From Spirosoma fluviale (lineage in GTDB: Bacteria; Bacteroidota; Bacteroidia; Cytophagales; Spirosomataceae): a stretch of DNA of 64,000 nucleotides. The DNA lies in NCBI GenBank assembly GCA_945883625.1, contig CAMCXW010000004.1, positions 23,009 to 87,008 on the forward strand, written 5' to 3'. This document shows positions 5,793 through 61,156 of the stretch, piece after piece. Positions within the stretch are counted from its first letter, which is position 1, and each line of letters opens with the position of its first letter. The position numbers were made by a program, and so were the translations under genes. The notes under the pieces were generated by a model that saw only the letters and a list, made by a program, of their open reading frames with translations, made no database searches and was not told the DNA's origin.

Positions 5793-6473
5793 ATGTTTAA
5801 AACCTTTTTACAATTGCTTTACCCAAAGCTTTGTTTTGCCTGCCAGGAGCCTCTATTCAGTAGCGAAGAATTTATCTGTACAACCTGTCGGATCGAACTT
5901 TCGCGTATTAAATTAGTTGAAAATACACCGAATTGGGTAAGGGCGAAGTTTGATGGGCTTATTGATTTTGAACATGCCAATGCCTTTTTTCATTTTATGC
6001 CGGGCAGTCGCGTGCAGCAACTCATGCATCAAATCAAATATAAAGGGGCCTCCGACCTTGGAATTTTTTTGGGGGTTTGGGCCGGGAGCGCATTGAAAAA
6101 GTCCCATTTTTATGACGAAGTAACTTGCCTCGTTGCCATCCCGCTTCATCCCAAACGCCTACAGGAACGTGGCTACAACCAAGCCGAGGTCATTGCAAAA
6201 GGGCTGGCCAATGCCTTATCTATTCCACTATATACGCAGGTACTCAAACGAATCTCGCAGTCTAATTCCCTTATCGGGTTAAACCGCGCCGCACGTTACG
6301 AAGAACTTGAAAATGTATTTGAAGTAACTGATGCAGCGAAAATCCGTGGTTCACATGTTCTGATCATCGACGATACCCTGACCACTGGAGCCACATTTTT
6401 GGCCGCGGCACAAAAAATTAGGGCTGCCGGAGCGACAAAAGTTTCCTTCTTCGCACTGGCAGCCCTTAAATAA
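5793..6473 (+). CDS. ComF family protein / amidophosphoribosyltransferase-like
   Basis: N-terminal Cys pairs (CFAC, CTTC), RGYNQAEVIAKGLA, PRPP motif VLIIDDTLTTGAT. Confidence 0.92.
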   Translation: MFKTFLQLLYPKLCFACQEPLFSSEEFICTTCRIELSRIKLVENTPNWVRAKFDGLIDFEHANAFFHFMPGSRVQQLMHQIKYKGASDLGIFLGVWAGSALKKSHFYDEVTCLVAIPLHPKRLQERGYNQAEVIAKGLANALSIPLYTQVLKRISQSNSLIGLNRAARYEELENVFEVTDAAKIRGSHVLIIDDTLTTGATFLAAAQKIRAAGATKVSFFALAALK

Positions 6474-58613: not shown

Positions 58614-59225
58614 ATGGCTTTTGAACTAGCACCCTTACCTTATGCAAATAATGCATTGGAACCTCATTTTGACGCATTGACTATGGAGATTCACCATGAT
58701 CGTCATCACAATGCGTATGTCACGAATTTAAATGCGGCGGTTAAAGACACTCCCTTAGAAGGAAAGACCCTTGAAGAATTATTTGCTTCAATTTCCACAT
58801 TAGCACCTGCAGTTCGTAACAATGGTGGTGGACATTTTAACCACGATTTATTCTGGAATATCTTATCGCCAAACGGTGGAGGTGCTCCAGTAGGTACTTT
58901 AGCAGCAGCGATTGATGCGAAATTCGGTTCTTTTGATGCCTTCAAAGAAGAGTTTAAGAAAGCGGGTTTAACACGTTTTGGTTCGGGATGGGCATGGTTA
59001 GTAGCTCAGAAAGACGGTTCAGTAGCCGTTTCTAGCACACCTAATCAAGACAATCCATTGATGGATGTCGCAGACGTAAAAGGTTTCCCCGTAATCGGAT
59101 TAGATGTTTGGGAGCATGCATACTATTTGAAATTCCAAAATAAGCGTCCAGATTATATTGATGCATTCTGGAACGTAGTGGATTGGACTAAAGCGGAGGC
59201 GCGTTACATCGCAGCTCAGAAATAA
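58614..59225 (+). CDS. Fe/Mn superoxide dismutase
   Basis: [38 protein letters not shown]...[28 protein letters not shown]. Confidence 0.97.
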
Positions 59226-59315: not shown

Positions 59316-59390
59316 GGCGGTTGTAGCTCAGTTGGTTAGAGTAGGCGTTTGTGGTGCGCTTGGTCGTGGGTTCGAGTCCCATCATCCGCC
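59316..59390 (+). tRNA. tRNA-His (anticodon GTG)
   Basis: Cloverleaf: G-1:C73 pair typical of tRNA-His, D-arm GCTC-AGTTGGTTA-GAGT, anticodon loop TTGTGGT, T-arm GTGGG-TTCGAGT-CCCAT. Confidence 0.92.
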
Positions 59391-59400
59391 CGTTTATTTT

Positions 59401-59432: not shown

Positions 59433-59444
59433 TTATTTTTGATC

Positions 59445-59576
59445 TTGGACAAACCCAAAAGGCGTGTGATTGCCTACATAGATGGATCTAATCTCTACTT
59501 TGGGCTAAAGGACGCCGGATTAAAGTTTTGTAGGTGGCTGGATGGAGTTGAACTAAATAAGCCTATTGGCTGGTAA
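59445..59576 (+). pseudogene. Truncated NYN/PIN-like domain (LabA/DUF88-type) N-terminal remnant
   Basis: 43-codon frame LDKPKRRVIAYIDGSNLYFGLKDAGLKFCRWLDGVELNKPIGW*; IDGxNLYFGL is the NYN-domain N-terminal motif, the rest of the domain is absent. Confidence 0.6.
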
Positions 59577-59591
59577 ATTATATACTTAAAT

Positions 59592-60230
59592 ATGAATCCA
59601 GTTATATTAAAACGTTTTTTGATTGTTGTGTACGCATCGGGTTTGGTGGGAATGCATGTGCCAGCTGTTTCGCCCATGTTTACGTCCTTGGTTCCGCTAA
59701 CTCTTTGGTTTACGGGATTTATTTGTGTTTGGCATTTCCCAAAGCCAAGCGCCCAGGCTTATATTTTATTGGCAGCTATCGGAATTGCAGCATGGATGCT
59801 TGAGGTTGCGGGCGTTCGTTCAGGTAAAATTTTTGGGGAGTATGCGTATGGGCCAACTCTCGGATTTAAAGTATTAGAAGTTCCCATTACCATTGGAATC
59901 AATTGGGTGCTTTTGGTGATTGTGACGAGTGCGGTCGTTGAGGAATGGAATTTGGGCGGAAAGGTTGGTCGCGCAGCATTAGGTGCGGGTTTAATGACAG
60001 CGCTTGATTTATTAATTGAACCTGTTGCCATGAACTTTGATTTTTGGCAATGGAGAAATAATTATGTCCCCATTCAAAATTTTGGAGCCTGGTGGATGGC
60101 TAGTTTTTTCTTTCATTGGGTCTATATTTCAGCTGATTTACCGGAAAAATCTAGTTTGTTTCGATTAATAGCGGCACTTCAATTTTTGTTTTTTTTAGGC
60201 CATTGGATATTTATGCAATTTAATTTGTAA
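59592..60230 (+). CDS. Carotenoid biosynthesis protein (CruF-like)
   Basis: Multi-TM; LEVAGVRSGKIFGEYAYGPTLGFKVLEVPITIGINWVLLVIVTSAVVEEW...TALDLLIEPVAMNFDFWQW. Confidence 0.88.
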   Translation: MNPVILKRFLIVVYASGLVGMHVPAVSPMFTSLVPLTLWFTGFICVWHFPKPSAQAYILLAAIGIAAWMLEVAGVRSGKIFGEYAYGPTLGFKVLEVPITIGINWVLLVIVTSAVVEEWNLGGKVGRAALGAGLMTALDLLIEPVAMNFDFWQWRNNYVPIQNFGAWWMASFFFHWVYISADLPEKSSLFRLIAALQFLFFLGHWIFMQFNL

Positions 60231-60274: not shown

Positions 60275-61156
60275 ATGAATGTTTTTTCAATAAAAGATGT
60301 AGAGAATATAAGTGGTATAAAGGCTCATACGTTGCGGATTTGGGAGCAACGGTATGGTATTTTAAAGCCAGAGCGTACAGATACGAATATTCGTCATTAT
60401 GGTGATGACGAACTTAAACTTGTACTTAATATTGCTCTGCTTCAGGAAAAAGGTGGATTTAAAATTTCTGAGATCGCCAAGATGAGCGATGCAGAAATGG
60501 TGTCACATATTCTGCATCTTTCAGAAACATCATTCAATCACGTGGATCACATGCAAGCACTAACGCTTGCCATGATGGATTTAGATGAGGCCCGTTTTCA
60601 AACCTTGACGCGTAACATTGTCAATGCCCATGGATTTGAATATTACATGCTTGAGGTGATTTACCCATTTATGCGCCGCTTAGGTACATTGTGGCTTTCG
60701 GGTTCCGTGGGTCCGGCGCAAGAGCATTTTATCAGTCATTTGATTCGGCAGAAATTGATTTCGGCGATAGACCAACAAGATTTAAGTTTAAAGCCAAATG
60801 CCAAACGCGTTTTGTTGTATTTGCCAGAAGGTGAGTTGCACGAAATTGGGTTACTTTTTGCTAATTATGTCTTTCGCGCTCGAAAACATGCGGTCGTTTA
60901 TTTGGGGCAATCCTTGCCTTATGACGAATTGCTGCTCGCTTATTCGATTCACAAACCTGATTATATTTTTAGCGTATTTACAACTGAGCCCAGCATTGAT
61001 GTAATGGATGATTACATTGCCCAAATGGCCAAAGATATGCCTGAAACGCAAATCATGTTAACAGGCTTCGCGGTGCTTCAGCCAGATCGTAATTTACCAG
61101 CTGAAATTCGGACTATACCTGACTTTCAAACGTTGATTGATATCGCAACCGCTTAA
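60275..61156 (+). CDS. MerR-family regulator with C-terminal B12-binding domain (CarH/LitR-like)
   Basis: MerR HTH FSIKDVENISGIKAHTLRIWEQRYGILKPERTDTNIRHY; Wx9EH motif WLSGSVGPAQEH; ExHxxG cobalamin motif ELHEIG. Confidence 0.9.
   Translation: MNVFSIKDVENISGIKAHTLRIWEQRYGILKPERTDTNIRHYGDDELKLVLNIALLQEKGGFKISEIAKMSDAEMVSHILHLSETSFNHVDHMQALTLAMMDLDEARFQTLTRNIVNAHGFEYYMLEVIYPFMRRLGTLWLSGSVGPAQEHFISHLIRQKLISAIDQQDLSLKPNAKRVLLYLPEGELHEIGLLFANYVFRARKHAVVYLGQSLPYDELLLAYSIHKPDYIFSVFTTEPSIDVMDDYIAQMAKDMPETQIMLTGFAVLQPDRNLPAEIRTIPDFQTLIDIATA

Follow-up and report, generated by a model that had tools for sequence, protein, structure and literature searches.

A CarH/LitR-type regulator without the light-state histidine beside a carotenoid gene of Aquirufa, and its predicted operator

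Can a cobalamin-dependent regulator still respond to light when the histidine that caps its light state is missing? The question is raised by a 293 amino acid regulator encoded in the window (the whole 64,000-nucleotide stretch of DNA analysed here), close behind a carotenoid gene (Table 1). An earlier note on this DNA had proposed a carotenoid-linked B12 sensor with changed or absent photochemistry. The first part of this proposal is well supported by homology, by synteny with crt genes throughout the class and by a predicted operator; the second has to be divided.

Table 1. Coordinates of the features discussed (positions in the window, except for the main crt operon, given for locus L179)
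Feature	Position	Strand	Basis
Fe/Mn superoxide dismutase (SOD)	58614..59225	+	Pfam
tRNA-His (gtg), between SOD and cruF	59317-59391	+	
Truncated NYN-domain reading frame (KPKRRVIAYIDGSNLYFGLKDAGLKFCRWLDGVELNKPIGW*)	59440-59578	+	
cruF-type carotenoid 1,2-hydratase gene, co-directional with the regulator gene	59592..60230	+	Pfam (PF04240, E 4.8e-23)
CarH/LitR-type regulator, 293 aa (MerR HTH, four-helix B12 domain, Rossmann B12 domain)	60275..61156	+	ORF, Pfam, alignment, model
MerR-type HTH DNA-binding domain, residues 4-73	60284..60493	+	Pfam MerR_1, E 1.9e-15
Four-helix-bundle B12-binding_2 domain, residues 94-161	60554..60757	+	Pfam, E 1.0e-8
W140 (equivalent to TtCarH W131, which stacks on the adenosyl group)	60692..60694	+	alignment
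L141 (His132 position of TtCarH, light-state upper ligand)	60695..60697	+	alignment
E150-H151 (E141-H142 of the Wx9EH motif)	60722..60727	+	alignment
H189 (H177; predicted lower axial cobalt ligand, GELHEIG)	60839..60841	+	alignment
Main crt operon: ECF sigma factor, crtI, crtB, then a predicted membrane protein	L179:6127-9089 (two dyads at 6112-6186)		

Domains and cobalamin pocket of the regulator

The regulator has the domain set of class I CarH/LitR proteins, with an N-terminal MerR HTH followed by four-helix and Rossmann domains. The MerR_1 and B12-binding_2 matches are both above the Pfam cut-offs; the Rossmann B12-binding match (residues 184-265, 21.2 bits) lies under the cut-off of 32.1, and this domain is seen in the model. 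By sequence, the top solved match is T. thermophilus CarH (TtCarH; E 4e-21). The AlphaFold model (pLDDT 86.7) agrees best with CarH structures among those in the PDB (5c8d, E 1.2e-13; TMt approximately 0.82 for the TtCarH CBD), and it reaches a TMt of 0.77 against CtMerR (8jbt).

Pfam and the alignment with TtCarH bear out what the earlier note had read from the letters, namely the MerR HTH and, at the right codons, the W140-x9-E150-H151 motif and H189. TtCarH positions 131, 132, 141, 142 and 177 correspond to W140, L141, E150, H151 and H189, so that the residue after the Trp is indeed Leu instead of His132. The Wx9EH motif is thus complete, and the lower-ligand motif D/ExHxxG reads E187-L-H189-E-I-G192, with its His. 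All four parts of the published SignatureFinder signature of light-responsive CBDs (GxxW/EH/GxxH/GxxxP; PMC11796333) are present, as G137xxW140, E150-H151, G186xxH189 and G211xxxP215. The hallmark of CarA, loss of the Trp of Wx9EH with EH kept, is absent here, since W140 is present.

Two departures are seen elsewhere in the pocket and the dimer interface. The terminal GG of the B12 motif reads TGF, as had been noticed, with a single glycine (G264) retained; a single glycine is common to 93 of 99 relatives, and we do not count the change as disqualifying because the four elements of the PMC11796333 signature do not include GG. Where TtCarH has its dimer salt bridge R176-D201 the regulator has Leu-Ser, and Gly192 of TtCarH is also not kept; therefore the oligomer and its assembly may differ from those of TtCarH. 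The genome encodes a PduO-type cobalamin adenosyltransferase and a MetH-like B12 domain and carries a cobalamin riboswitch, so that AdoCbl can plausibly be made from imported cobalamin.

Is Leu141 peculiar to this protein? As a comparison set for the pocket residues, we drew 99 regulators from within or close to the class. The Trp, EH and lower His are kept in 89 of them, and in 40 of the 42 that are linked to crt genes. None of the 89 Bacteroidia relatives keeping these residues has His after the Trp; the position is mostly occupied by Q, V, L, M or I, also by T and others, and His is found there in one more distant member of the phylum (L164). We therefore rejected the idea of a mutation unique to the 293 amino acid regulator, a non-His residue being universal in the lineage. 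The earlier note had also raised the case that close relatives all share the Leu and are already characterised as normal photoreceptors: all of them do lack the His, but we found none characterised in the open literature.

Leu141 means that the bis-His light state (His132-Co-His177) cannot form, and in this sense, and no other that we can support, the photochemistry is changed. Photoactive members of the family with Arg, Gln or Tyr at the His132 position have been described (PMC11796333). Among them, CtMerR of Chloracidobacterium, which has Arg, photolyses and passes from a dark tetramer to a light monomer (PMC11796333). The H132A variant of TtCarH still photolyses, and reports disagree on whether it leaves the tetramer in light (PMC10442372). 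By analogy with these proteins, and with W, EH and the lower His conserved, Leu141 does not imply lost light sensing; the suggestion of absent photochemistry is not supported.

Four paralogues from the class (L123, L137, L140, L144) form a subclade without EH and the lower His, the B12 ligands. It is possible that this subclade is an independent B12-free, CarA-like derivative. In one genome (G213) the only regulator found belongs to this subclade, yet a dyad of the kind described below is kept before the ECF gene.

Gene neighbourhood and a predicted operator

The 44-bp gap behind a CruF-like gene, also described earlier, is confirmed. The regulator gene is present in 142 of 150 genomes of the family and in 97 of 392 genomes of the phylum (E ≤ 1e-10). 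In most of the class it stands at the head of a crt operon or next to one, typically in the order regulator-[ECF sigma]-crtI-crtB-(idi)-crtZ-crtY. In its own family the module is split, with SOD, cruF and the regulator at one site and ECF-crtI-crtB elsewhere (here on contig C17); cruF adjoins the regulator in most of the family genomes looked at, and the order SOD-cruF-regulator is conserved in many. The NYN frame that is truncated here is intact at the same place in several Aquirufa relatives.

Comparison of promoters yields a 34-bp dyad, TTTGTTTAA-N16-TTAAACAAA, over the crt promoter, and among spacers of 8-23 a spacer of 16 is sharply preferred. Two dyads (0 and 1 mismatches) precede ECF-crtI-crtB, at distances of 57 and 16 bp from the ECF start codon. 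The second covers the spacer and -7 region of TTG-N18-TAAATTTG, a promoter of the Bacteroidetes type. These two are the only sites with at most two mismatches in the 2.3-Mb assembly, which is 88.8% complete. When the AT-rich promoter was resampled by a first-order model, no dyad arose in 4000 trials. The word-enrichment scan was rerun without coding bases, the earlier top words being coding artefacts around ATG. Each half-site contains TnnACA, arranged inverted as TGTnnA-N18-TnnACA, and TnnACA is the core of published CarH operators (PMC9304148). No dyad with up to four mismatches was found near cruF or the regulator gene; what ties the regulator to the genes beside it in the window is therefore position only.

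Two other candidate sites were discarded. A third exact TTTGTTAAACAAA in the genome lies inside coding sequence, and between cruF and the regulator some Aquirufa have a TAAACA/TGTTAC-like repeat, which is inconsistent across the genus.

Does the dyad travel with the regulator? Each of 17 Aquirufa genomes has one or two dyads. Across Bacteroidota, the dyad occurs in 59 of 78 genomes with the regulator versus 12 of 295 without it, uncorrected for kinship; for the reversed pattern, used as a control, the corresponding counts are 10/78 and 12/295. Restricting the comparison to the class (58 of 76 versus 4 of 29) and to one genus (22 of 22 versus 0 of 3) is the sole correction for phylogeny applied to these counts. 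The 9-mer half-site is found upstream of the regulator in 23 of 99 loci, versus 9 of 423 control genes. At the level of single genomes, a 99% complete family member with crtI and without the regulator (G030) lacks the dyad altogether, and an ECF gene was not detected within its fetched crtI flank. A second genome, scored regulator-negative at 95% completeness (G045), has one dyad.

In relatives, dyads also precede folE, encoding GTP cyclohydrolase I (L339), the gene of 6-pyruvoyl-tetrahydropterin synthase (L322), and peroxiredoxin (L338) and fasciclin genes. Separately, bacteriorhodopsin-like genes of two relatives (L326:1601-2350 and L332:1607-2404) have a predicted CarH-type dyad 67-73 bp upstream, which suggests shared control of rhodopsin and carotenoids. 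Among all these dyads of relatives, single ones in AT-rich genomes may be chance matches.

Proposed function and its alternatives

We think it rather probable that the regulator needs AdoCbl to repress crt genes in the dark, and that light relieves this repression without bis-His ligation. From homology, the conserved ligand residues, synteny, and the operator motif with its co-occurrence with the gene, we infer B12 binding, a response to light, a change of oligomer, direct binding to the dyad, and repression instead of activation; the last is favoured because the dyad sits over the -7 region and because of the precedent of CarH. The protein would be the version found in Aquirufa of a CarH/LitR-type repressor lineage that runs through its class of Bacteroidota, and it probably acts in trans on the crt operon of contig C17. 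In the dark, the AdoCbl-loaded oligomer would occupy the 34-bp dyad over the -7 region and block transcription of the ECF sigma, crtI and crtB genes. In light, the Co-C bond would be cleaved, the adenosyl group would leave, the oligomer would loosen and the carotenoid genes would be expressed. With Leu at position 141, the light state is expected to resemble that of CtMerR, an aquo/hydroxo-Co(III) together with His189, a Glu150-water contact, or both.

Could the protein sense B12 and be blind to light, repressing crt genes according to the supply of AdoCbl, with light, in the absence of His132, having no effect on its release from DNA? One study in which TtCarH H132A photolyses but mostly remains a tetramer under light (PMC10442372) would fit such a sensor. 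We nevertheless regard it as unlikely, given that CtMerR monomerises in light with Arg at this position (PMC11796333) and that the dyads of relatives precede light-related genes (rhodopsin and the two pterin genes above). A very unlikely alternative is a B12-independent, CarA-like regulator with a relic pocket, crt being under another signal. The reduction of GG to a single Gly, the paralogues that have lost their ligands, and the dyad kept in G213 beside a ligand-less regulator all point that way; against them stand the W, E, H and lower His kept here and in nearly all crt-linked relatives, the cobalamin adenosyltransferase in the genome, and the contrast with CarA, which lost the Trp (PMC9304148).

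The dyad might also belong to another factor, for example as the adjacent ECF sigma's own promoter or the site of an unknown repressor, with the regulator acting elsewhere. This would account for the position of the motif just upstream of the ECF gene in 37 of 42 ECF-bearing named loci. It is quite unlikely, however: the word also lies upstream of 12 of 24 regulator-crtI operons without an intervening ECF gene, sigma sites do not take the form of a 34-bp inverted repeat, the half-sites contain the CarH core, and the dyad co-occurs with the regulator gene, without exception in the genus mentioned above.

Significance and comparison with known systems

What is new here is a class-wide regulator lineage, usually at the head of the crt operon, that co-occurs with a 34-bp dyad; we found no earlier regulator study of this Bacteroidota lineage in the open literature. 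We suggest tentatively that it may be a distinct Bacteroidota CarH lineage in which the bis-His lock was lost or never existed and which binds the 34-bp inverted dyad, often acting via a crt-adjacent ECF sigma, some members also controlling rhodopsin and pterin/photoprotection genes. If true, green light would be sensed across the phylum by a switch whose light-state chemistry is different. What His132 does in CarH is contested; a large natural set of CarH-like proteins without it, whose predicted operator is sharply defined, opens the matter to experiment. The lineage is a candidate light sensor for pigmented, often rhodopsin-bearing Bacteroidota. Members of Aquirufa live in fresh water, are pigmented red and have predicted carotenoid genes, and some have rhodopsin (PMC11861422). 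Chryseobacterium lacus, a light-inducible carotenoid producer of the phylum, is reported to have no car/lit genes (PMC7064467).

The closest known system is TtCarH/LitR (5c8d, 5c8e, 5c8f), which shares the MerR HTH, four-helix and Rossmann domains, the equivalents of W131, E141, H142 and H177, and the link to crt genes; the regulator differs from TtCarH in Leu for His132, Leu-Ser for R176-D201 and the lack of Gly192. The predicted operator is an inverted dyad, whereas that of TtCarH consists of tandem 11-bp repeats. In Streptomyces, the CarH-type regulator LitR is paired with an ECF sigma factor, LitS, near crt genes, an arrangement that we liken to the regulator with ECF and crt by description, not by sequence. 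The myxol cluster of Nonlabens spongiae (PMC11855829) is likewise headed by a MerR-family gene, as are the crt clusters of many relatives; that gene was described simply as belonging to the MerR (in places MarR) family, in a study that dealt with neither B12 nor an operator, and the likeness is again one of description. CtMerR of Chloracidobacterium thermophilum (8JBS/8JBT; PMC11796333) is only 16-17% identical to the regulator and has Arg where the regulator has Leu, but it too combines a CarH-like photoreceptor domain with the absence of the light-state His.
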